Assembly: GCA_026392115.1 (NCBI GenBank)
Contig: JAPLCQ010000092.1
Span: 1 to 64,000, forward strand
Length of the DNA stretch: 64,000 nt
Reading direction: 5' to 3'
Source of the DNA: Armatimonadota bacterium
GTDB taxonomy: Bacteria; Armatimonadota; Chthonomonadetes; Chthonomonadales; CAJBBX01
Positions 12,638-48,858 of the stretch are shown piece after piece. Both the position numbers and the translations under genes were made by a program. The stretch's first letter is position 1; each line of letters starts with the position of its first letter. The notes beneath the pieces are model-generated. The model did no database searches. It was given only the letters and a program-made list of their open reading frames with translations, and was not told the DNA's origin.

Positions 12638-14038
12638 ATGGCGGAGCAGGCGGGGCGGTTCAGCAGGCGTGCGGTGTTGGCGGGCGCATTGGGCGCCGCG
12701 GCGGCGCCGCGGGGGATCAGCATGGTAGACGAGCCGCGCCTGCCCGTGCCGACGCCGGAGCAGCTTGCCTGGCAAGAGGCCGAGCTGAGCATGTTCTTCC
12801 ATTTCGGGGTGAACACGTTCACCGACCGCGAGTGGGGCGAGGGAACCGAGGACCCGGCCATCTTCAACCCCGAGCGGTTCGACGCCGAGCAGTGGGTCGA
12901 TGCCGCCAAGCAGGCGGGCTTCAAGTACCTGATCCTCACCGCCAAGCACCACGACGGCTTCTGCCTCTGGCCCAGCCGCCACACGAAGCACTCCGTGGCG
13001 GCCAGTCCCTGGCGCGGCGGAAAGGGCGATGTGCTGGGCGACTTCGCCAGGGCCGTCCACGCGGCCAAGCTGAAGCTCGGCATCTACATCTCGCCCTGGG
13101 ACCGCCACGAGCCCTGCTACGGCGACTCGCCCGCCTACAACAAGCACTTCGTCGCCCAGCTCGACGAGGTGCTCACTCGCTACGGCGAGGTGGGCGAGGT
13201 CTGGTTCGACGGAGCCTGCGGCGAAGGCCCCAACGGCAAGCGGCAGGAGTACGCGTGGGACGACTTCTACGCCACCGTCCGCAAGCGGCAGCCCAAGGCT
13301 CTCATCGCCATCTCCGGTCCCGACGTCCGCTGGGTGGGCAACGAGGACGGCTACGCACGAGAGACAGAGTGGTCCATCCAGCCCGCGCCAAACGGCGCTC
13401 GTGCGGTAGTCGACGGCAAGGCCTGGTGGCCCGCCGAGTGCGACGTCTCCATCCGTCCGGGCTGGTTCTGGCATCCCACCGAAGACGCCCGCGTGAAGCC
13501 TCTGGACCACCTGCTCGATATCTACTTCCGCTCCGTCGGCCGCAACAGCATGCTCCTTCTCAACGTGCCGCCCAATCGGCACGGACTGCTGGCCGACCCC
13601 GACGTGGCGCGGCTGGCGGAGTTCGGCGCGTCGGTCCGGCGCATGTTCGGCCAGGATCTGGCGCGGGGCAAGCGGGTGACCTCCTCGTCGGGCAACGGCG
13701 GCGCGCTGACGGACGGGCGGCCCGCCACGCACTGGTCTGTCCCGAGCGGCCTGCCGGCAAGCGCGGAGGTCGATCTGGGCGCCCCGGTCACCTTCGACGT
13801 CGTCTGCACGCGGGAGCAGATCTCCCGGAGCCAGCGGGTTGAGGCCTATCGCGTGGACGCCCGCGTGGATGGCGAGTGGCGCACCCTCGTGCAGGGGTCC
13901 ACTATCGGTCGCAAGAAGCTGGACCGCATGAAGCCCGTGACCGCGGACCGCGTCCGCTTGACGCTGGAGAAGGCCCTGGCGCCGCCCATGGTGACCGCCC
14001 TCAGCCTCTACCGCACCGGCGCGCCCGGCACGGAGTAG
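12638..14038 (+). CDS. Alpha-L-fucosidase, GH29-like
   Basis: Tat-like SRRAVLAGALGAAAA; SMFFHFGVNTFTDREWG; AKHHDGFCLWPSRHTKHSV; VGEVWFDGACGEGP; LLLNVPPNRHGL. Confidence 0.92.
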   Translation: MAEQAGRFSRRAVLAGALGAAAAPRGISMVDEPRLPVPTPEQLAWQEAELSMFFHFGVNTFTDREWGEGTEDPAIFNPERFDAEQWVDAAKQAGFKYLILTAKHHDGFCLWPSRHTKHSVAASPWRGGKGDVLGDFARAVHAAKLKLGIYISPWDRHEPCYGDSPAYNKHFVAQLDEVLTRYGEVGEVWFDGACGEGPNGKRQEYAWDDFYATVRKRQPKALIAISGPDVRWVGNEDGYARETEWSIQPAPNGARAVVDGKAWWPAECDVSIRPGWFWHPTEDARVKPLDHLLDIYFRSVGRNSMLLLNVPPNRHGLLADPDVARLAEFGASVRRMFGQDLARGKRVTSSSGNGGALTDGRPATHWSVPSGLPASAEVDLGAPVTFDVVCTREQISRSQRVEAYRVDARVDGEWRTLVQGSTIGRKKLDRMKPVTADRVRLTLEKALAPPMVTALSLYRTGAPGTE

Positions 14039-14042
14039 CCGA

Positions 14043-14609
14043 TTGAGCCTGGCTGAACTACTTCTGATCGCGCTCGGCTTGGCCATGGACGCGTTCGCCG
14101 TCGCAGTGGCCAGCAGCGTGACGCTGGGTAAGGCCTCGCCGCGCCAGGTCTTCCGCCTATCGTTCCACTTCGGCCTCTTCCAGGCCATGATGCCCGTCCT
14201 GGGGTGGCTCGCGGGCCTCTCCGTGCGGGACTCCATGCAGGCCTGGGACCACTGGGTGGCGTTTGGCCTCCTCGGCGCCATCGGCGGCCGCGCCTGCTGG
14301 GCGGCGCTTCACGGCGACGAGGAGGAGGAGCGCAAAGCCTCCGATCCCACCCGCGGCGCCTCGCTGGTCTCGCTCTCCATAGCCACAAGCATCGATGCCC
14401 TCGCCGTCGGTGTCAGCTTCTCCATGCTCCGCGTGGTCGTCTGGCAGGCGTCGGCCGTGATCGGCGTCGTTGCGGGCGCCATGACGGTCCTCGGCATGGC
14501 CCTGGGCGCTCGCCTGGGCGCCCGGTTCGGCTCTCGCATGGAGCTGGTAGGGGGTCTGGTGCTCATCGGCATCGGCCTCAAGATCCTCGGGGATCACCTG
14601 CTCCGTTAG
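14043..14609 (+). CDS. mntP: Putative manganese efflux pump MntP
   Basis: 188 aa, TTG start; ALGLAMDAFAVAVASSVTLG and SIDALAVGVSFSML duplicated signature; six hydrophobic segments. Confidence 0.9.
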   Translation: MSLAELLLIALGLAMDAFAVAVASSVTLGKASPRQVFRLSFHFGLFQAMMPVLGWLAGLSVRDSMQAWDHWVAFGLLGAIGGRACWAALHGDEEEERKASDPTRGASLVSLSIATSIDALAVGVSFSMLRVVVWQASAVIGVVAGAMTVLGMALGARLGARFGSRMELVGGLVLIGIGLKILGDHLLR

Positions 14610-14788
14610 CGCTTCGTTATTCCTGCCCCTTTTTGCCTCCTATCCATTCCGCTCGGTTCGGCTCCACCGGTATCATCGTCCCGCCAAGCCCTCTCTACTT
14701 GGCACTGAGGTGCTTCGGAGCGCAAGGCCGGCCCGATGCGGCAGGGCGGGTCCATTCCGAGACCCCGCTCCGAGCGAAAGGGATTACC

Positions 14789-16576
14789 ATGGGAAGAACC
14801 GCCAGACTGCTGAGCACGGCAGCTCTTATTGCATCGGCATTTGCTCTCTGCGCCGCTACGGCGTATGCCGACCAGTACATCATCCGCCTTCGCGCCGGCA
14901 ACGACGTGTACGGCTTCGCACAGAAGGCCCGTTGGCAGATGGGCGCGGCGACCGCCACCGCCCGACCCGGCCTGGGCGCCGTCGTCGTCACGATGCCCTC
15001 CGGCCGGGTCGGCGGCTTCGTGAAGCTGCTCGCCGCCCGCACCGATGTCGCGTACATCGAGCGCGACCTGCCCATGACGGCTCTATCCACGCCCAACGAC
15101 CCTTACTTCGGCAATGAGTACGCCCACTCCAAGGCCCAGACCCCGGCCGCGTGGGACCTCTGGAAGCCCAACGCCTCGGTCACCGTGGCGGTGATCGACA
15201 CCGGCATCGACAGCACCCATCCCGACCTGGTCAACAAGATGGTGCGCAATGCCCAGGGCGCGGTGGACGGCTACAACGCGCTGACCCTCACCGCCGGTTC
15301 GGCACTGGACGACCACGGCCACGGCACGCACTGCGCCGGCATCGCCGCCGCACAGATCAACAACGGCTCCGGCGTCGCGGGCGTCTCCGGTTGGACCGGC
15401 TCCGCCGCCCAGACCGACGTGGGCACCAAGATCCTCCCCGTGAAGTGCCTCGACGCCACAGGCTCCGGCACCTCCAGCAGCGTGGCGGACGGCATCGTCT
15501 GGGCCGCCGACCGCGGCGCCCGCATCCTGAGCCTCAGCGTCGGCGGCGGAAGCACGCAGACCCTGGCCGACGCCGTCACCTACGCTTGGTCCAAGGGATG
15601 CCTCGTGGTGGCTGCGGCAGGCAACAGCGCCAGCTCCGTCCGCCAGTACCCGTCCGGCTATCCCGAGTCGCTTGCCGTTGCCGCAACGACCAGCACGGAC
15701 ACGCTGGCATCCTACACCAACTACGGCTCCTGGGTGCAGACCGCCGCTCCCGGCGATGCCATCCTCTCCACGCTGCCCACCTATGCCACCACGGTCGGCG
15801 TGACCGGGTACGGCACCATGTCCGGCACCTCCATGGCCACGCCGTTCGTAGCCGGTGAAGCGGCGCTCCTCCTCTCGTTCAACCCGAGCCTGACGAACGC
15901 GCAGTTGAAGAACCTGATCGTCAGCAACGTTGACGCCTACGTCCCCTATCAGTCCCGCACCCTGGCCACCGGCGCGGGCCGCGTCAACGTGCTCAAGGCC
16001 ATGGTGGCCGCGGGCGCGGCGCAGTCCGTGCCGGGCGCTCCGGGCAGCCTCGCCGCCGCGGCGGGCTCGGGACAGGTGACCCTCTCCTGGACCTCCGCGG
16101 CCAATGCGCTCACCTACAACGTGAAGCGATCCACGACTGCGGGCGGTCCCTACACGGTGCTCGCTTCCGGCGGCGTCAGCCTCGGCTACACGGACAAGAG
16201 CGTCGTCGGCGGCACGACCTACTACTATGTGGTCTCCGCCACCAACGCCGCCGGCGAAGGCGCCGACTCCAACGAAGCAAGCGCCAAGCCTACGGTGGTC
16301 CTTCCTGCCGCGCCCACTTCCGTCAAGGCGACCGCCGGCAAAGCCAGCGTCGGCCTGACGTGGACGCAGTCCGCGGCCACCGGCGTCACCGGCAACAAGG
16401 TGTACCGATCCACCACCAGCGGCGGCCCCTACACGCTGGCCGCAACGCTGGGCAAGTCAACCTCGACCACCATCAGCGGTCTCACCAAGGGTGTGAAGTA
16501 CTATTTCCGGGTAACCGCGCTGGTGGGCACGGTGGAGAGCGCCTACTCCGCCGAAGTGTCCGCAACGCCCAAGTAG
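14789..16576 (+). CDS. Subtilisin-like serine protease (S8) with two C-terminal FnIII domains
   Basis: VAVIDTGIDSTHPDL, DDHGHGTHCAGIAAA, GTMSGTSMATPFVAGEAALL; two FnIII repeats with SxxGGPYT. Confidence 0.95.
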   Translation: MGRTARLLSTAALIASAFALCAATAYADQYIIRLRAGNDVYGFAQKARWQMGAATATARPGLGAVVVTMPSGRVGGFVKLLAARTDVAYIERDLPMTALSTPNDPYFGNEYAHSKAQTPAAWDLWKPNASVTVAVIDTGIDSTHPDLVNKMVRNAQGAVDGYNALTLTAGSALDDHGHGTHCAGIAAAQINNGSGVAGVSGWTGSAAQTDVGTKILPVKCLDATGSGTSSSVADGIVWAADRGARILSLSVGGGSTQTLADAVTYAWSKGCLVVAAAGNSASSVRQYPSGYPESLAVAATTSTDTLASYTNYGSWVQTAAPGDAILSTLPTYATTVGVTGYGTMSGTSMATPFVAGEAALLLSFNPSLTNAQLKNLIVSNVDAYVPYQSRTLATGAGRVNVLKAMVAAGAAQSVPGAPGSLAAAAGSGQVTLSWTSAANALTYNVKRSTTAGGPYTVLASGGVSLGYTDKSVVGGTTYYYVVSATNAAGEGADSNEASAKPTVVLPAAPTSVKATAGKASVGLTWTQSAATGVTGNKVYRSTTSGGPYTLAATLGKSTSTTISGLTKGVKYYFRVTALVGTVESAYSAEVSATPK

Positions 16577-39130: not shown

Positions 39131-40270
39131 ATGGAGAACGGCGCACGCTTGCGAGTGGCGGTGGTGGGGTTGGGCTTCGGGGGCAGCTTCCCGGAGATTT
39201 ACCGAGCGCACCCGGACGTGGCCGAGGTGGCCCTCTGCGATACCAACGCCGAGCGTCTGGCCGCCTTCGCCGGCGAGCATGGCTTCGCCGCTCGCTACGC
39301 CCGGCTTGACGACCTGCTGGCCGACGGACGCTGGGACGCCGTCCACCTGGTGACGCCCATCCCACTCCACGCCCGTCAGGCCGTCGCCGTGCTGCAGGCG
39401 GGCAAGCACTGCGCATGCACCGTGCCCGCCGCCACCAGCCTCGACGACCTGCGCGCCCTCGTGGCCGCCCAGCGCGAGAGCGGCCGCAACTACATGATGA
39501 TGGAGACCGCGGTCTACACCTACCACTACCTGATGGCCGCCGCCATGCGCGATGCCGGCGAGCTGGGCGCCCTTCAGTTCCTGCGCGGAGCCCACTACCA
39601 GGACATGGAGGGATGGCCGCCCTACTGGGCCGGCCTGCCGCCCATGCACTACGCCACCCACGCCGTCGCGCCGTTGCTCGCCCTGGCCGACGCCCGCGCG
39701 GTTCGGGTCCACTGCTTCGGCTCCGGCTCCATGCGCGAGGAGCTGCGCGCGCCCTACGGCAACCCCTTCCCGGTGGAGACCGCCATCTTCCAGCTGAGCC
39801 GTCCCGGCCTCGCCGCCGAGGTAACACGCTCGCTCTTCGAGACGGCACGCGACTATGTGGAGAGCTTCACGGCGCTGGGCGGGAAGGCCTCGCTGGAGTG
39901 GCACCTGGAGAACGAGCTGCCCGTGGTCTTCCGCCTCAGCGACCGAACGCCCGACGGCTGGGGACGCCCCTGCGCGGTGGAGCGCGTGGCGCCGCCCTCG
40001 CGCAACGACCTGCTACCGCCCGAGCTCCACCGCTTCACCCACCACAGCGTGCTGATGGACCAGCAGAGCCTCCACGGCTCCGTGCTGCACGGGGGAGCGC
40101 ACCACGGCTCCCACCCGCATCTGGTCCACGAGTTCGTCCGCAGCATCGTGGAGCGGCGCCCCCCGGCCATCGACGCGGTCCGAGCCGCCGACTGGACCGC
40201 CGCAGGCATCTGCGCCCACGCCTCAGCCATGCGTGGCGGCGAGGCCGTGGAGGTGCCGAGCTTCGGCTGA
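39131..40270 (+). CDS. Gfo/Idh/MocA family oxidoreductase
   Basis: VAVVGLGFGGSFPEIYRAHPDVAEVALCDTNAERLAAFA; HLVTPIPLHARQAVAVLQAGKHCACTVP; last 36 nt lie inside a 67-bp direct repeat. Confidence 0.92.
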   Translation: MENGARLRVAVVGLGFGGSFPEIYRAHPDVAEVALCDTNAERLAAFAGEHGFAARYARLDDLLADGRWDAVHLVTPIPLHARQAVAVLQAGKHCACTVPAATSLDDLRALVAAQRESGRNYMMMETAVYTYHYLMAAAMRDAGELGALQFLRGAHYQDMEGWPPYWAGLPPMHYATHAVAPLLALADARAVRVHCFGSGSMREELRAPYGNPFPVETAIFQLSRPGLAAEVTRSLFETARDYVESFTALGGKASLEWHLENELPVVFRLSDRTPDGWGRPCAVERVAPPSRNDLLPPELHRFTHHSVLMDQQSLHGSVLHGGAHHGSHPHLVHEFVRSIVERRPPAIDAVRAADWTAAGICAHASAMRGGEAVEVPSFG

Positions 40271-40301
40271 GGCGGACGCCGGTTCGTGTAGGTCGTCAGG
40301 G
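40235..40301 (+). repeat. Exact 67-bp direct repeat, left copy (att-like)
   Basis: GGCGGCGAGGCCGTGGAGGTGCCGAGCTTCGGCTGAGGCGGACGCCGGTTCGTGTAGGTCGTCAGGG; identical to 47399..47465 (offset 7164). Confidence 0.97.
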
Positions 40302-40368
40302 GGCCCCGAACGCAAGCACGACACCGGTAGCAGGCGTAAGGAGGTGGTCGGCGGTTCGATGCTGCCGT

Positions 40369-42452
40369 TCAGTACGGACTGGCCAGTCGAGCTGCAAGCA
40401 GCCAACTATCGCCTAGCCTTGCATCTCCCAAGGCCTTCGACGCCGCGTCAATGCGCTCAACCTGGGCGTCCATTTGTGGACCCTCACGAACGAGTGAACT
40501 CTTCGGTGAACCCATCGAGGCGCGGAGCCGAGCACCCACCCCGTTGTCCAGAGCAACCATGTGCGCCTGTGCGAGGAACGCAAGCCAGCAGGACAGCCTT
40601 GACCGGTCGCCACTCGTGCCAGATGCCGCACCCGCATGCAGCCACTCGCGCGCCAGCTTGCGATCATTTCCCACGGTCATGCGGAGGATGCCGATCTCGC
40701 GGGCGATCAGTCCCCGTAGGCCCTCATGCTGCGCTGGGTTAGCAGTCGCGACCGACTCCACTGCGGCGCAAACATCCACCGCGACTCGGCTCTCTGCGCC
40801 GGGATGAGCGAGCACCCAGTCGCCAGCCGATCTGGCGATCCAGAAGATGTCCCAATCTGATGGATCGTGCAACAAGGCATCGCCGGACAGCGTCAGCGCG
40901 TCATCGAACCTTAGGGCGCGCAGGAGAGCAGCAATGCGATGGCCAAACAACCTCGACCGGTCCATTGCAGGCAACTCCAACGCCTCAAGCAGCTCAAGCC
41001 GGGCGACCGTGGTTGCCAGATCACCCGAGTTGCCCGTAGCAGCCAGAAATGACCTGCACTGGCACACTGCTGAACGAAGCCTGATGCTTACGCGCGATTG
41101 GTCGAATGCCGCCTCGGCCGCCGAGACCTCATTGGCTGAGGCCTGAAGTAGGGCCCATGCTGTACGGTAGTTGTCGAGTAGATCCTCGAGAGTGGTCGCC
41201 AGCACGCTCAGACGCCCCCAGTCCAAGTCATTAACTGTCGATTGGACAAGCATTAGGCGGTAATCTAGGAGCCAGTGGAAGTCCTCAGGCTGAAGGACGT
41301 GCGCACCGATCGTCTGCTCCTGCTCTGCTGCAAGCCGGCGTGTCTCGCAGGCCAGCGAGCTCTGGTTGGCCAGCATCAGCATGTAGTTCCGCAGACGGAA
41401 CAGCATGGACGGTACATCCCTGCCCGTGGTAGTGCTTAGGCCCGCCTCCAGAGCTTGAAGCGCAGCCAGTTTCTGCTCTGGGCCGGCGGACGTACCAGAC
41501 CGATGCACAGACTCTATGACCGTATCGAGGCAACTCCTCGGTCCGGCAGTGCCTGCGCCGGTCACCACCGCCTGCCAGAGGCGTGATATCGCGTCTCGCC
41601 GCTCAACGGCGACCTGCTCCGAATTGCCGGAGTGGCGCGCCCAGATGGACAGTGCCTGCGCCCAGTTGCCTTCGCGCTCCGCGACACGCGCCCGGCGCTC
41701 CTCATATCCTCCGAAGGACTCGTAGACCGACAAGCGTCTCTGCGACCGAAGACTCTCGAGGATGCCGGCTGGACCGGCCTCGCGGCGGTGGTAGACCGTG
41801 TTAGCCAGGAAGTCCGCGACCACAGTGCCCCAGTACGCATTGGCATACACAAGGCGAAGGGCAACGTTGTTCGAGAGTGCTGCCCGCATGATGCCACGCG
41901 ATGCCAGGCCGGCTTCCACGGCACCCGCCAGTTCGCGGAGTACCTGGTCGTGGATGTCTGAACCAGTCGTCATCCTCTGACCGTTCTGATCAGTCCGGGT
42001 TGCGACGACCAGGTCGAGTCGCGCAAGCGTGACGTCGGGGCTCATCACGGTCTCTACCATCGATATCGTGTCCAAGAGCATGACACGGTAGACACGCTCT
42101 CGGTCGGTCAGTCGGGTCTTGCTGAAGTCCACCGAGGAGAGGAACCGGGCGCCGGCCAGATCGCTGGCAACAACACTTGTCAGTCGTTCGCAGATGGTGA
42201 GTGCGGCCGCGGGGCCGAGTCGCATCCGAAGTTCGCTCAGATGGAAGTCATCGATGCCGGAGAGAGAGCACCTATGAGGCAGTCCTGCCAGCGCGGCATC
42301 CAGTGCTCTGCAGGCATCAGCAAGGGGTAGGGGTACGAGTAGCCCTGCCACGACCCACTCGCCCCGTGGCGTGACGAAGTCGCCAGACTCATCGACGAAC
42401 AGCGTGGCGGATACCGCGCTCCTCATGCGTTTATCTAGTTGCATTGGGGTCA
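40369..42452 (-). CDS. DUF3800-like N-terminal domain fused to a long alpha-helical (TPR-like) C-terminal region
   Basis: SATLFVDESGDFVTPRGEWVVAGLLVPL...GIDDFHLSELRMRLG...ANAYWGTVVADFLANTVYHRR; ORF track opens at 42501, start set to 42452 (MTPMQLDKRM), overlapping the upstream gene. Confidence 0.7.
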
Positions 42453-45142
42453 TACCAGGCGCCACAGCGAGGGCACCTGAGATGATAGACATTGAGCACA
42501 TCTATATCATGGTAAGTCCAGTATGGTCCATGTTTCACTAACGGATGCTTACACTCACAGCAATGTGTTACAACGACAAAATGCCCACAAGTGCTGCATG
42601 TCCCATGCCATTTAGTGCCAGTTTTGGTCTCCTGTTGCTGCCACTCAATGGTCGTACCGCCGCAGGCGATGCAGATGGCTAGCGGCCCGCGTATGGGTAC
42701 CGACTTGCTGTTCTCAAGCGGGTCGTCGTACCCGAAGTTGCAGGATTCACCACTCCGGAGCGATAGCGCCTCCAACTCCATCGCGATCAGACGCCTGAGG
42801 TTGTCGAGTGCTTCCGCGCCGCGGTCACCATCGGGCCGCAACAGGACGGCGCCATGCGCATGGTTGGGTGTGCGTGGTTCCCAGCCGAACAACCGGCTCC
42901 CGCCATAGCACGAGCCGCTGTTCCAGCGCTGCGGTGTCCGCGGGATCCTGATGGCTCCGCAAGAGGGATGGACGATGAACACCCGTCGTGTGCCCTTACC
43001 AGAGTACTTCGCCTCCATCTGCATGATGTCAGCGCCAAGCAGCTTGTCGCTTTCAGCCTCGTACGTCTTGCACTTGCAATCCAGCACGAGAGTCCGCCTC
43101 AGCGGAGATGTGCTAAGCCCTGATCTCGGAGGGTGCATCTCTAGCAGCAAGGTGAAGTCCGGGCGGAGCCCGTCCAACTGCGGCTGATAGCTGAGCTCGG
43201 CGCTAACGGGCGCCGATGCGTGCTCGAACCGCAGGACGATCGGCTCGCTCCCTGGCTTGGCGGCCGCAGCAAGCTTGGCAGCGGCACGATGAAGCGAGTC
43301 GCCGTCACTGACAGTGAATCCCAGACCATCGACCAGAACCGAAACGGCCTGCAGCAGACACCATCGCTCATACAGCGTTGGCATGTCCAGCACGCCGACT
43401 CGCCCAATTGCCAATAAGGCGTCGGCCGTACTCGAACTCAGGCCGGCGGCATCGATGATCTTCCGGTAGGCAACCAACATAGCTCGGTAGCCAGCGTGGC
43501 CAACGAACAGCATGGACGTTGGTGCACCCTGTCTGGCTCGGATTCCACGCTGGCAGAGCATCTGCCTAGCCGCCGTGAGCCCATCGAGGATTGCTCGGAG
43601 CCGCGTACACTGTCCTTTCACGGTATTGGCTACATGCTGGAGGGCGGCGTACTCCTGCTGGCATGCCACATGGTCCCGCTCAGGCGTTCCCACCTCGTTA
43701 CATGGCGCCTCATGCAGGCTTCTTAGGCTCGAGACGCAGGCATCAACTCGCGATTGCTCGTTGCCGGGTAGTCTGAGGCGCCTCAGGCCACTGATCGCAC
43801 TGACGGCCAACATGACATAAGGAAAGTCAACCTTATATATAATGCACTTATCGACTGTTAGTTCATACATGCCATCCTTGTCGAGTAATTGGGCTATTTC
43901 ATCATTACCTTGCAATGCAATGCGTTTGCATTGAACCACTGGTGGGCTGCCTGAGCAGTCGTGCCAGGTTACCCAGAACGTTGGATATAGCCTGTCAATC
44001 CAGTACCTTTTGTCAGGCACGTCGGTAATAGTGAAACGCAAGGTTCCTCCGCGGTCCGAGGCCACTGGCCGCACCGGCACGAGTGCGGCACACCGCTCAT
44101 CCCACTGCTGCCTGTCCTGGTGCAGGGCTGCCAGCTCGCCCATCAGGGCCAACTCCCAATCTTCCGCAGCTTCGCCTCCCTCATATGGTCCCACGCCACG
44201 CCGGCTCTCCGCCAGCGCGGCAACCCTCTGCTCGCATCGGCTCTGGTGCATCGCAGCGCACTTCAGTAGCCCATCGACGATCTGCTGCACGTGCTCGACC
44301 ATCCATGCTACGTATCGGTTCTCTGCGGTGTCAGCCGTCTCCTCGTGCCCACGCGCGGTTACGTGCGTGGCGTCGGGTCGGCGCGAAATCCCGGCTATGC
44401 TCTTGCGCGAAGGGCGTACTCGATGGACAGGCTGGGACGCCTCAGTTGGCTTCAGTCCACAGTGAGGCGCTCTGGCTATCGAGGTCGCATGCCCGATAAG
44501 AGATTCGCACAGTCCGAGCACGCGCACTGAGAGGAGCGGGACGTTTGTCCATCCTTCTACCGTGGTAGGGCTCTTAACCTTAAGCAACAGGCCGTACAGC
44601 CCGCCCTGGAAGTCATCGACGAGGCGGATCAGCTCCGCGCTAGTAAACCCTGGCGGGTGAAGGTGCAGATCACACGTATGCGGACCTATCAGCAACCGTA
44701 GTCTGCCTGAGTATCGGCAACTGGCAGCGTCGAAGTACCGCTGCTCCCGGTGCCACTTGCCCTTCTCAGCCCACCAGACCGTCCTGCTGATCGGGTCCAC
44801 AATCTGGTCCAGTTGGACCGCGGTGCCGTCGCTATACTCTATGCTAGGCGGCTCCATGCCGGGCTGATGGCGAATCGCCAGTTGAGCTCTTCTCGTCCGA
44901 CCAGCGGGAACTGACGGCTCCGCTTCCGACCGGCGGTCTGCTGCCCCGTGGTCGCTGCCGCCATCGCTGCCACCCGAGGTGCGAGCATAGTTCAGCGCCT
45001 CTGCCCACCATCCGTCAGACGGGCTTGGTTCAACCGTGATGGGCTCAGGCGAAGCCGTGACCGACCGGACCTGCCGGTCTTCAGACCATTCAACAGATAT
45101 ATACCTGACCTCAAAGGGTGCACCTACGGCAGTGCGACTCAC
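42431..45142 (-). CDS. DUF2357-type protein with PD-(D/E)XK nuclease domain (McrC-like partner) and C-terminal zinc ribbons
   Basis: TADTAENRYVAWMVEHVQQIVDGLLK; nuclease-like LRPDFTLLLE...RRTLVLDCKCKTYE...QMEAKYSG; C-terminal CIACGG...CSTCGH...CCECKH...CPRCGAWYD. Confidence 0.75.
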   Translation of the reverse strand: MSRTAVGAPFEVRYISVEWSEDRQVRSVTASPEPITVEPSPSDGWWAEALNYARTSGGSDGGSDHGAADRRSEAEPSVPAGRTRRAQLAIRHQPGMEPPSIEYSDGTAVQLDQIVDPISRTVWWAEKGKWHREQRYFDAASCRYSGRLRLLIGPHTCDLHLHPPGFTSAELIRLVDDFQGGLYGLLLKVKSPTTVEGWTNVPLLSVRVLGLCESLIGHATSIARAPHCGLKPTEASQPVHRVRPSRKSIAGISRRPDATHVTARGHEETADTAENRYVAWMVEHVQQIVDGLLKCAAMHQSRCEQRVAALAESRRGVGPYEGGEAAEDWELALMGELAALHQDRQQWDERCAALVPVRPVASDRGGTLRFTITDVPDKRYWIDRLYPTFWVTWHDCSGSPPVVQCKRIALQGNDEIAQLLDKDGMYELTVDKCIIYKVDFPYVMLAVSAISGLRRLRLPGNEQSRVDACVSSLRSLHEAPCNEVGTPERDHVACQQEYAALQHVANTVKGQCTRLRAILDGLTAARQMLCQRGIRARQGAPTSMLFVGHAGYRAMLVAYRKIIDAAGLSSSTADALLAIGRVGVLDMPTLYERWCLLQAVSVLVDGLGFTVSDGDSLHRAAAKLAAAAKPGSEPIVLRFEHASAPVSAELSYQPQLDGLRPDFTLLLEMHPPRSGLSTSPLRRTLVLDCKCKTYEAESDKLLGADIMQMEAKYSGKGTRRVFIVHPSCGAIRIPRTPQRWNSGSCYGGSRLFGWEPRTPNHAHGAVLLRPDGDRGAEALDNLRRLIAMELEALSLRSGESCNFGYDDPLENSKSVPIRGPLAICIACGGTTIEWQQQETKTGTKWHGTCSTCGHFVVVTHCCECKHPLVKHGPYWTYHDIDVLNVYHLRCPRCGAWYDPNATR

Positions 45143-45146
45143 GCAA

Positions 45147-47279
45147 TTAGCCCCAGTAGTTTAGGATGCCATCTGTATCTGAGGCTGTCACCATTCTACG
45201 TAGCTCCTCTGTGGATGATGCAGGCATGGCCCGATAGCGCTGTAACACAGCGCGGCCTACCGAGTTCGTGACCGCCGTTGCCAGCTCTTCAGCGATGTCC
45301 CGCTTCGGCTTGGCGGATTGGGGCCTGTCGTGCGCGGCTGACGTAGCGCTCACTGTCATGAACCGAGGCAGCACCTTGTGCAGCAGCAGATTGTTGACTG
45401 CCACGGCCTCGACACTGCTTGCGTCTTCATCCGCCGTCACTTCGGCGAACAGCAGGGCATATAGCTGGGCTTGCCGAATCACGCGAATGCCGAGCTCAAG
45501 CCCAAGGGGGGCCAGGTAGTTCCTGTTCCATTCGTCCAGGCGCCTGCCGACGCCGTGGCTCAGATCGACATCAGGATAGGGCCGTCGCTCGCAGCGAAGG
45601 GCGGACGGCGAGACCATCACCGGCCCGTCGTGCCCCGCCGCTGTAGTCGCTTCGGATACTTCCTGCCTGATCTGGTCAAGGTGGTCCAGCGGGCTCGGCA
45701 CTCGAAGCACATGCACGCGGTCAAGCACCTTTGGCGAGAGGTAGTGTCCAGTCTCATCGACGTTCAACGTTCCGATGATACGCACATTCGGTGGAATCTC
45801 AAGTGTGCTGGGCACTACGATGCTGGCGGCCAGGCAGCGCAGGCGTCGGCGCGCATCGTAGCCGCCTGCGTCACTCCTTAAGCCCACGGTGGCCCATAGT
45901 GCGTCTCGAACGGCCGTGCATTGCTCTACTCCATCCCAGCTTTGAGTGGCCTGCTCAGTACACAAGTCGGCGCACAGCAGTCTCGCGACTTCACCGAACT
46001 CCTGCCTAGCCCGACGCTCCTCGTCGGACGCATAGAGCGGCACCCTCGCCAGTTGGTGTCGCTCTTCGAACGCCGACAGGAAATCCGCGAAGTAGTACTC
46101 GATCCGGGCCAGGTTCATCTCGTCGAGGCATATCAGGTGGAGCCTGCCCTGGTCGCTTCGGGCGTTGAGCAAGGCATCCAGGAACGGAGTGGTGACGTAT
46201 GAACCATGCATGGGGTTGAAGAATCCCATCAGGTCGTCCGGCGAGGTCCAGTTAGGCTTAACAGGGATGATGTGGGACACCCCTCCAATGGCATCAGCAA
46301 AGGACCTGGCCAGTTCCGTCTTGCCGGACCCGGGTTGGCCTGCCAGGAGGACAATGTCGTGGGTTCGCATCAGCGTCAGGAAGTCGTCAAGCAGGCTACG
46401 CGGATAGTGGATGCGTCTGCTGTGATGGAGATAGGCCTGTATCAGTCCGGGCAAGGCGCCAAGATCGCCATCGAAGTCTGGGCAGCCCCCGAGGGCCGAA
46501 CGTTCGCCTGCCGCTCCGTCCCTCGCCTCATTGGGCAACAGAAGCGCGGCTTGCTCGCTGCTGAGCAGGCCCAGCTCGACCAGCCGGTCGAGTCGGACGC
46601 GGGCTGTGGCCTGCTCTTCGTCTACCCGTCGCGCCAGCTCGGCCTTGGCGTCCTGAAGCCCGGACACCTCGGACTCCAGAGTGGCCCTGTCGCGCACACG
46701 TTGGGCGATCTGCTCCTCCACATCGGCGCTCTCGGCCACCAAGGCGTCGCGCCGGACCTGGGCCTCCTGCAGCTTGTGGGTCTCCTCAGCCGCCTCTGCT
46801 TGAGCTCTTGCGATCTCTTCGCGTATGGTCGTTGTCTCTCTGCTTACATAGTATTTCACTGTTGTTTCTGGAAGCAGGATGGCGCCATCGTCCCGTGTGG
46901 TTACGAGGTTCGGATCGATCTCACTCAACTCAACCGGATCGCGAGCACGCAAGACTACAGGAATGCCCTGTTTTTGAATTTCCGAATCAGACGCTATCTC
47001 TATTATAGTTTGTACAGTACATCCATTCAATGCCTCATGTCTTCCTGACACAAAAAGTCTAGTGGGCATATAAACTATTGAATTCTTAGTATCAGTAGTA
47101 TAAAACACAATCGGAATGCCATCTGCCGTCGTCGGATTGTGCAACCAGGTCGGCTGATCTGGGAGCGACTTGATGGTGCCAATAGCGATGCATTTGGACG
47201 TGTTGCAGGCTGCGAGCAGCGCCGCCAAGCGCTCGGGCTTAGTCATCTGCTCAATCTCGGCTCTAGTCATGTCACTCAT
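45147..47279 (-). CDS. McrB-like AAA+ ATPase with N-terminal uncharacterised domain and coiled coil
   Basis: Walker A LLAGQPGSGKTELARSFADAIGG; SPDDLMGFFNP; Walker B LHLICLDEMNLARIEYYFADFLSAFEER; IIGTLNVDETGHYLSPKVLDRVHVL; heptad-rich Glu/Ala/Arg segment after the first ~160 aa. Confidence 0.85.
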   Translation of the reverse strand: MSDMTRAEIEQMTKPERLAALLAACNTSKCIAIGTIKSLPDQPTWLHNPTTADGIPIVFYTTDTKNSIVYMPTRLFVSGRHEALNGCTVQTIIEIASDSEIQKQGIPVVLRARDPVELSEIDPNLVTTRDDGAILLPETTVKYYVSRETTTIREEIARAQAEAAEETHKLQEAQVRRDALVAESADVEEQIAQRVRDRATLESEVSGLQDAKAELARRVDEEQATARVRLDRLVELGLLSSEQAALLLPNEARDGAAGERSALGGCPDFDGDLGALPGLIQAYLHHSRRIHYPRSLLDDFLTLMRTHDIVLLAGQPGSGKTELARSFADAIGGVSHIIPVKPNWTSPDDLMGFFNPMHGSYVTTPFLDALLNARSDQGRLHLICLDEMNLARIEYYFADFLSAFEERHQLARVPLYASDEERRARQEFGEVARLLCADLCTEQATQSWDGVEQCTAVRDALWATVGLRSDAGGYDARRRLRCLAASIVVPSTLEIPPNVRIIGTLNVDETGHYLSPKVLDRVHVLRVPSPLDHLDQIRQEVSEATTAAGHDGPVMVSPSALRCERRPYPDVDLSHGVGRRLDEWNRNYLAPLGLELGIRVIRQAQLYALLFAEVTADEDASSVEAVAVNNLLLHKVLPRFMTVSATSAAHDRPQSAKPKRDIAEELATAVTNSVGRAVLQRYRAMPASSTEELRRMVTASDTDGILNYWG

Positions 47280-47288
47280 TCCCCTTGC

Positions 47289-47302
47289 GCTGAGCGCTCA
47301 GC
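47289..47302. promoter_or_regulatory. 14-bp perfect palindrome upstream of the island operon
   Basis: GCTGAGCGCTCAGC, ten bp upstream of the ATPase start. Confidence 0.4.
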
Positions 47303-47398
47303 ATCTGGAGGACAGTCGCGCCTACGTGTCACAGAGGGTCCCCTTACGATGACGGTGTCCCAATATCAGTTCGCCAGTGCGTACGGCAGTTCCTGCGC

Positions 47399-47465
47399 GG
47401 CGGCGAGGCCGTGGAGGTGCCGAGCTTCGGCTGAGGCGGACGCCGGTTCGTGTAGGTCGTCAGGG
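47399..47465 (+). repeat. Exact 67-bp direct repeat, right copy (att-like)
   Basis: Identical to 40235..40301; ORF-track peptide AARPWRCRASAEADAGSCRSSG appears at both places. Confidence 0.97.
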
Positions 47466-47502
47466 CGCCGAGGCGCTCCCGGACGTCCATCGCCGCTCCT
47501 GC

Positions 47503-48858
47503 CTAGCCCGCTCTGAGCAGCCACTCCTCAGCAGTAGCGATGCGGATGCCCGGTACGCGGATGGGCGCCGGCGGCGGCTCGGCCACGATCACGAGCCGGT
47601 CGGCGTCGGGGTACTCGGCCCGTGCGGCCGCCAGCGCGCCGGTTTCGCGCTCCGCCGTGGCGCGCGAAGCCATGTCGGCGCAGACCTGGATCAGCTCCAC
47701 CCGACCGTCGGGGTACCGCGCCACGAAGTCGATCTCCGAGCCGTCTCCAAGCTTGGCGTAGGTCACCTCGGCGCGGCGCCGTTCCAACTCAACCAGCACG
47801 CAGGTCTCCAGCGCATGGCCGACGTTGGCCTTGCCCGACCGATCGAACACGGGAATGAAGCCCGGGTCCACGGGGTAGGCCTTCCTGGGGTTGGTCATCC
47901 TCCGACGCTCGGAGTCGGTATCGACGCTCACCAGGCGAAGGAGGAAGCTGTCCTCCAGATGGCCCAGGTACGCATGCAGGCTGTCCTTGCCCACCTTGAG
48001 CCCCTGTGACGTCAGGTCGCCGTGGAGTCTGTGGATGCTGAACGAGGACGCGGTATTGGAGAGCAGATGCCGGACCATCCACCGCAACGCGACCGGGCTG
48101 CTGACGGTGTGCCGCTCAATGATGTCGCGCAGCAGCACGGTGTCCACATACCCGCGCAGGAGCTCGAACCGGTCGGCGGCATCCAGTCCCTGCGCCTCCG
48201 GGAAGCCGCCAACCACAAGGTAGTCGCGCAGCGACGCGCCGAGTTGCGAATGCACCGCGCTGGTCCAGCGCTCCGGCGGCTCGGCGGGCTCGACGCCGGC
48301 GTGCCGAAGGGCCTCGCGGAAGCTGAACGGGAAGACCACAGCCTCCATTGACCGGCCTCGGAGCGACGTCGCCACCTCGCGGCTCAGGAGCTTGGCCGAC
48401 GAACCCGACACGATGATCGCCATGCGCTCGGTGTCGAGAAGCCGCCGGATGAAGAGCTCCCAGCCGGACACCACCTGTATCTCGTCCAGGAACAGCGTGA
48501 CCATCCGGGTCCCGCGCGCCGACGGCCGTGCCTTGTAGTACTCGTCGACGATCAGGTCTAGGTCACGGGCGGCCATGCCAACGAGCCGTTCATCCTCGAA
48601 GCCGAAGAAGAGCAGGTCGGCCCGGTCCGCGCCAGCCGCCATTCGGTCCCCCAGGAGCTGCCAGAGGTAGGTCGTCTTGCCGCTCCGGCGCATGCCGATG
48701 ACTGAGACCGCCTTGCCCGGCAGGCTCGGCGCCCGGAGGTCGCGCCGCGTGAACGCGGGGACGTCCCGAGCCAGCGAGTCTGCGATCTTCTGCCGTACCA
48801 CTTCGCGCATCTGTCCTTCCTCCAAGGACAGATCACTCCGAGTCCGTCCTTCCGTCAA
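47503..48858 (-). CDS. AAA_14/DUF4143-type ATPase
   Basis: SVIGMRRSGKTTYLWQLLGDRM; VTLFLDEIQVVSGWELFIRRLLDT; IIVSGSSAKLLSREVATSLRGRS; alternative ATG start at 48810 is likely. Confidence 0.9.
   Translation of the reverse strand: MTEGRTRSDLSLEEGQMREVVRQKIADSLARDVPAFTRRDLRAPSLPGKAVSVIGMRRSGKTTYLWQLLGDRMAAGADRADLLFFGFEDERLVGMAARDLDLIVDEYYKARPSARGTRMVTLFLDEIQVVSGWELFIRRLLDTERMAIIVSGSSAKLLSREVATSLRGRSMEAVVFPFSFREALRHAGVEPAEPPERWTSAVHSQLGASLRDYLVVGGFPEAQGLDAADRFELLRGYVDTVLLRDIIERHTVSSPVALRWMVRHLLSNTASSFSIHRLHGDLTSQGLKVGKDSLHAYLGHLEDSFLLRLVSVDTDSERRRMTNPRKAYPVDPGFIPVFDRSGKANVGHALETCVLVELERRRAEVTYAKLGDGSEIDFVARYPDGRVELIQVCADMASRATAERETGALAAARAEYPDADRLVIVAEPPPAPIRVPGIRIATAEEWLLRAG

Follow-up and report, generated by a model that had tools for sequence, protein, structure and literature searches.

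A stretch of 64,000 nucleotides of Armatimonadota DNA (the window) contains a three-gene operon in which two genes, A and B, encode a McrBC-type pair and a third, C, encodes a diverged DUF3800 protein with a long helical tail. Judged by its sequence matches, the A-B pair is already known as a candidate defence system, PADLOC PDC-M26. What is new is C as a recurrent third partner of A-B, undescribed as far as we have checked. The reading that we lean towards is that the operon encodes a defence system of the McrBC superfamily, a Type I-A-like CoCoNuT in a variant with three components, that it was acquired horizontally and that its activation would degrade nucleic acid in two ways. If so, a restriction branch that is predicted to act on RNA gains a probable second nuclease. 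Furthermore, the role of C can be tested directly, using natural systems with and without C and a case in Psychrobacter in which A and B appear to have been exchanged while C was retained.

Gene layout and insertion site

All three reading frames were found on the minus strand at the positions given in the preliminary description. The operon and its surroundings consist of the following features (window coordinates):

Gene A: 45147 to 47279, minus strand; 710 aa; predicted CnuB/McrB-like AAA+ NTPase (PADLOC PDC-M26A, AAA_5, AF2 model)
Gene A, architecture: N-terminal beta-rich domain, 98-residue coiled-coil helix, AAA+ domain with a helical insert, NxD motif
Gene B: 42431 to 45142, minus strand; 903 aa; predicted CnuC/McrC-like DUF2357 + PD-(D/E)xK nuclease with C-terminal zinc ribbons (PADLOC PDC-M26B)
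Gene C: 40369 to 42426, minus strand; 685 aa; predicted diverged DUF3800 (RNase H-fold) domain with a TPR-like helical tail
76-bp direct repeat, copy 1: 40230 to 40305, unstranded; spans the 3' end of a Gfo/Idh/MocA gene; shares 97% identity with copy 2
76-bp direct repeat, copy 2: 47394 to 47469, unstranded; upstream end of the inserted unit
7.16-kb unit: 40306 to 47469, unstranded; the operon and one repeat copy; absent from a same-genus genome

The three genes do exist and form a single operon, as had been proposed. Chance is excluded here, since long homologues of the proteins are found in many phyla in the same order. The gap of 4 nt between A and B is as previously given. On the other hand, the overlap of about 22 nt between B and C relied on an upstream ATG. 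Since the C proteins of the relatives begin directly ahead of the DESGDF strand, the better start is the ATG at 42426, 4 nt past the stop codon of B, which results in a protein of 685 aa.

In the same-genus genome that lacks the unit, both flanks are joined at one repeat copy (L112:2603-2678), that is, the site is empty. The GC content is about 58-63% inside the unit and about 70% outside. Together, the empty site, the repeats and the drop in GC support an insertion at this place; the alternative is a deletion in the same-genus relative. No integrase was recognised inside the 7.16-kb unit.

Several observations concern the neighbourhood. In the same-genus genome G096, other DNA follows the same gene end (L117:1-1480) and another contig has the 3' end of the gene once more (L118:2538-2616), as if the site took varied cargo. 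The AAA_14/DUF4143 ATPase at 47503-48858 (PADLOC PDC-S01, E 6e-93) lies outside the inserted unit, because it is part of the backbone shared with the empty-site genome. On plasmids, relatives of A-B, without C, adjoin Zorya I (Klebsiella), Dnd genes (Massilia) or a type I restriction system (Pseudoalteromonas).

Domains and conserved residues of the three proteins

The protein encoded by gene A matches PADLOC PDC-M26A (E 3.4e-134) and was assigned AAA_5 in Pfam. Its identity as a McrB-like ATPase, proposed earlier, is supported by the motifs Walker A, Walker B (DEMN; D386/E387) and NVDE, which are present and, in the alignment, near-invariant among the relatives. The NxD motif corresponds to N506-V-D508 within GTLNVDE (residues 506-508), and its N and D are kept in all 85 aligned A sequences that are ungapped at those positions. 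The spacing between Walker B and NxD is 119 residues; in the NxD relatives from its own phylum (Armatimonadota) it is 45-48 residues in seven of the eight cases that could be measured. The AlphaFold (AF2) model of A (pLDDT 81) places four extra helices (418-436, 448-453, 455-465 and 473-488) between these two motifs. It also predicts a beta-rich N-terminus, with strands at 31-117 of low to medium confidence (pLDDT 47-83), an AAA+ core, and one unbroken helix at 138-235, the region on which SMC-like coiled-coil matches fall. Among the PDB matches listed for the N-terminus of A, no OB-fold domain was singled out, and a PDB sequence search with the A profile gave weak matches only, McrB among them. 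Its own phylum harbours other NxD McrB-like ATPases (L004-L014), mostly without the long insert.

For gene B, the match to PADLOC PDC-M26B has an E-value of 9.5e-97. The DUF2357 domain is above the Pfam cut-off (27.4 bits vs 23.3), and PDDEXK_7 is just under it (19.4 vs 22.1 bits). The D..DCK core of the nuclease is present and near-invariant in the relatives; in the alignment, the nuclease residues P661-D662, D688 and K690 are conserved, as are eight cysteines of the zinc ribbons. The DUF2357 score and the nuclease core support the DUF2357/PD-(D/E)XK identity that B had been given. We were not able to find B in phage records, and a PDB sequence search with the B profile returned no match.

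On its own, the C protein from the window has no supported match in family libraries, including PADLOC (0 matches) and Pfam DUF3800. Nevertheless, DUF3800 (PF12686) is matched by ten of the 11 aligned C members (the window protein and ten relatives), with a best E-value of 4.4e-6; two of the relatives are above the cut-off of 21 bits (31.9 and 25.6 bits). A DUF3800-type third protein, as proposed in the preliminary description, is thus supported, though the window protein itself gives no match. No PADLOC family fits C well, the best E-value among the 11 members being 0.0015. The 13 aligned sequences all carry D12, D16 and D205, and each has an acidic residue (D or E) at positions 110, 119 and 138.

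In the AF2 model of C (pLDDT 79), strands and helices form an N-terminal domain, and helical pairs make up the rest of the chain; the limits are residues 1-240 (approximately) for the DUF3800 domain and about 241-685 for the TPR-like tail. A Foldseek search with this model matched TPR- and HEAT-type proteins, for example RapI (TM-score 0.62, target-normalised), none of which attains an E-value of 0.001. The listed Foldseek matches cover the helical tail only, with no RNase H among the PDB matches listed, and a PDB sequence search with the C profile gave no match. The RNase H fold of C is a prediction, based on the DUF3800 match and a model of medium confidence. Going by the alignments, the presumed catalytic residues are retained in A, B and C.

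Recurrence of gene C next to A and B

A genome scan with the A alignment resulted in 80 loci, 66 of which have B with 700 bp or more of sequence beyond it. In 12 of these 66 loci, from at least five phyla, C directly follows B, and 54 are without C. The C-bearing loci come from Desulfurivibrionaceae, an unassigned MAG, Sulfurimonas, Paraferrimonas (P. haliotis), a Spirochaetes MAG, Halochromatium, Mucispirillum, Oleiphilaceae, two Psychrobacter genomes and two Bacillus-type genomes with diverged copies of C. A thirteenth locus (Chromatiaceae L063) has a broken C at the end of a contig. The trio thus does recur as neighbours in other genomes, and the lack of recurrence that would have refuted the preliminary description is not seen. 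However, C is not the "fixed" third component that was assumed there: since most A-B pairs are without it, even where there is room for it, C is a recurrent but optional component. In a Geobacillus locus (L103:4291-14806), the place of C after the A-B relatives is taken by a repeat-rich protein of 824 aa, an ORF of 485 aa and an Hsp70-like protein.

A search by C alone is free of the bias that comes from collecting loci by A. In 289 Bacillales genomes it revealed C in seven (six of them new), and A and B adjoin C in four of the seven. Three of the six new genomes have the gene order C-A-B, which is a second arrangement. The C homologues without adjoining A-B are L128, L130 and L132; in L130 the C-like ORF has a length of just 386 aa, and an ORF of 1075 aa comes after it. 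Among 369 gammaproteobacterial genomes only the seed was found, i.e. there is no C in the 368 others, and 346 genomes from the phylum of the Desulfurivibrionaceae MAG gave the seed and one genome that is apparently the same as that of L026. In the window's own phylum, neither B nor C was found in any other of 291 genomes. Searches of plasmids with three different queries found no C. No relative of C was found in viral contigs, and a scan of these with A gave one weak relative.

We considered C as a chance neighbour of A-B and rejected this, as C recurs beside A-B in two gene orders.

A different possibility is that A and B form a complete defence system, and that C is a separate plug-in nuclease of defence islands which acts alone and only uses the promoter of the operon. 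We consider this rather improbable. The 54 of 66 loci without C are in line with it, as are the three of seven Bacillales homologues of C that have no A-B neighbours. The same is true for Psychrobacter, where a nearly identical C accompanies two very different A-B pairs: between L091 of Psychrobacter sp. APC 3426 (13028-15111) and L098 (13300-15377), C has 90% protein and 91% DNA identity, with a boundary at the start of C, whereas A and B have only about 30% protein identity (in L098 both are frameshifted). A and B therefore appear to have been swapped jointly while C stayed, which argues against a highly specific interface between A, B and C. On the other hand, C adjoins A-B not only in two gene orders but also in two branches of the NxD family, and the B/C junctions are mostly within 30 nt of the B stop or overlap by a few bases. 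The distances of A and C are correlated (Spearman 0.68, permutation p 0.0005), and this also speaks against a separate C; the identities of B and C are correlated as well (Spearman 0.67, permutation p about 0.001 or less). Finally, besides the seeds, no solitary C was found in 658 genomes of the window's own phylum and the Gammaproteobacteria. Note that the tree of A has long branches and needs at least nine changes in the presence of C; we have not used it for any claim about gain or loss.

Alternatively, C could be a control or safety element, the tail of which binds a ligand or a protein, while A-B is gated by an RNA on which the RNase H-fold domain acts, by processing or removing it. The resemblance of the tail to TPR regulators such as RapI would suit such a role, and a connection between DUF3800 domains and putative ncRNAs has been stated (PMC10910872). 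However, a search of the window between 39 and 49 kb showed no known RNA family, and no RNA element was identified, and we hold this explanation to be quite unlikely. It is hardly credible that the three genes have no joint function, as mere chance neighbours or as what is left of a decayed operon: the operon is indeed rare in its own phylum, but none of its reading frames is interrupted, the catalytic residues are conserved and many phyla have the trio.

Proposed mechanism and known systems

We return to the reading of the operon as a three-component defence system. In McrBC, a ring NTPase is activated by a DUF2357 protein. By analogy, A would assemble as a ring, its hydrolysis would be stimulated by the DUF2357 stalk of B, and the nuclease of B would cut nucleic acid once the ring is engaged. 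The N-terminus and the coiled coil of A may sense the invader or the intermediates of its transcription or translation. With its TPR-like tail, C may dock on the A-B complex or else on a protein of the cell or of a phage; its RNase H-fold domain may be a second nuclease, probably acting on RNA or an RNA:DNA hybrid. Upon activation, nucleic acid would be degraded by both routes, and the expected phenotype would be phage or plasmid restriction, possibly via cell arrest. This anti-phage role is inferred. The fold family of C, its conserved acidic residues and the genomic linkage suggest a docked second nuclease. An RNA target is extrapolated from the predictions made for CoCoNuTs, and the one thing that strengthens it is that DUF3800 is found together with RNA-activated CRISPR effectors. 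A-B presumably has no need of C, which is missing from most of the pairs.

A broader and more speculative idea, which we think unlikely, is that RNA-sensing immunity makes general use of TPR-DUF3800 proteins as an exchangeable effector subunit, common to Cas12a2/type VI-F and CoCoNuT systems. In that case, the three-gene form would be ancestral and the two-gene Type I-A form would have arisen by loss of C.

How does the operon compare with known systems? It shares with the canonical McrBC of E. coli K-12 the logic of an AAA+ ring NTPase plus a DUF2357/PD-(D/E)xK nuclease. It differs in that A has an NxD instead of the NxxD GTPase motif, a coiled coil, a beta-rich N-terminus and a helical insert, in the extra zinc ribbons of B, and in the third gene.

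Type I-A CoCoNuT is a branch of the McrBC restriction systems described as having two genes only, the McrB and McrC homologues CnuB and CnuC (PMC11090510). According to Bell et al. 2024, CnuB is marked by NxD rather than NxxD, a helical insert between Walker B and NxD, and a coiled coil before the NTPase (PMC11090510). In Type I-A, CnuB has a cold-shock-like OB-fold at the N-terminus and CnuC an immunoglobulin-like N-terminal domain; CoCoNuTs are predicted to act on RNA (PMC11090510). A has the NxD motif and, as predicted from sequence and model, the insert between Walker B and NxD and the coiled coil N-terminal to the NTPase domain; B likewise combines DUF2357, PD-(D/E)xK and zinc ribbons, and the genes are in the order A-B. 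In these features, A and B fit the definition of Type I-A CoCoNuT (PMC11090510). The difference is the third gene, C, which is co-linear with A-B in the window and in 12 other loci; the main text of the CoCoNuT paper does not mention DUF3800 (PMC11090510).

The preliminary description had presented the whole set as a candidate undescribed operon. This does not hold for A and B, as the adjoining genes match both families of the PADLOC candidate PDC-M26 (PDC-M26A and PDC-M26B) and the pair fits Type I-A CoCoNuT. C, in contrast, matches no PADLOC model. In the open-licence literature we found no description of DUF3800 joined with McrBC, although such an absence is not a proof.

The nearest precedent for C is found in Cas12a2 CRISPR systems, namely their TPR-DUF3800 accessory. 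TPR-DUF3800 proteins accompany Cas12a2, and an RNase H fold with a catalytic rearrangement has been reported for them (PMC10910872); an RNase H-fold DUF3800 nuclease also occurs in some VI-F and V-A2 CRISPR loci (PMC12669027). As in the Cas12a2 accessory, DUF3800 is here joined to TPR-type helical repeats and encoded beside an immune effector, and the latter is also true for the DUF3800 (RNase H-fold) domain of the V-A2 and VI-F loci. These proteins are likened by description, not by sequence, and the partner here is a McrBC-type machine and no CRISPR effector. The operon ties the CoCoNuT branch to an accessory protein that has so far been known from RNA-activated CRISPR systems.
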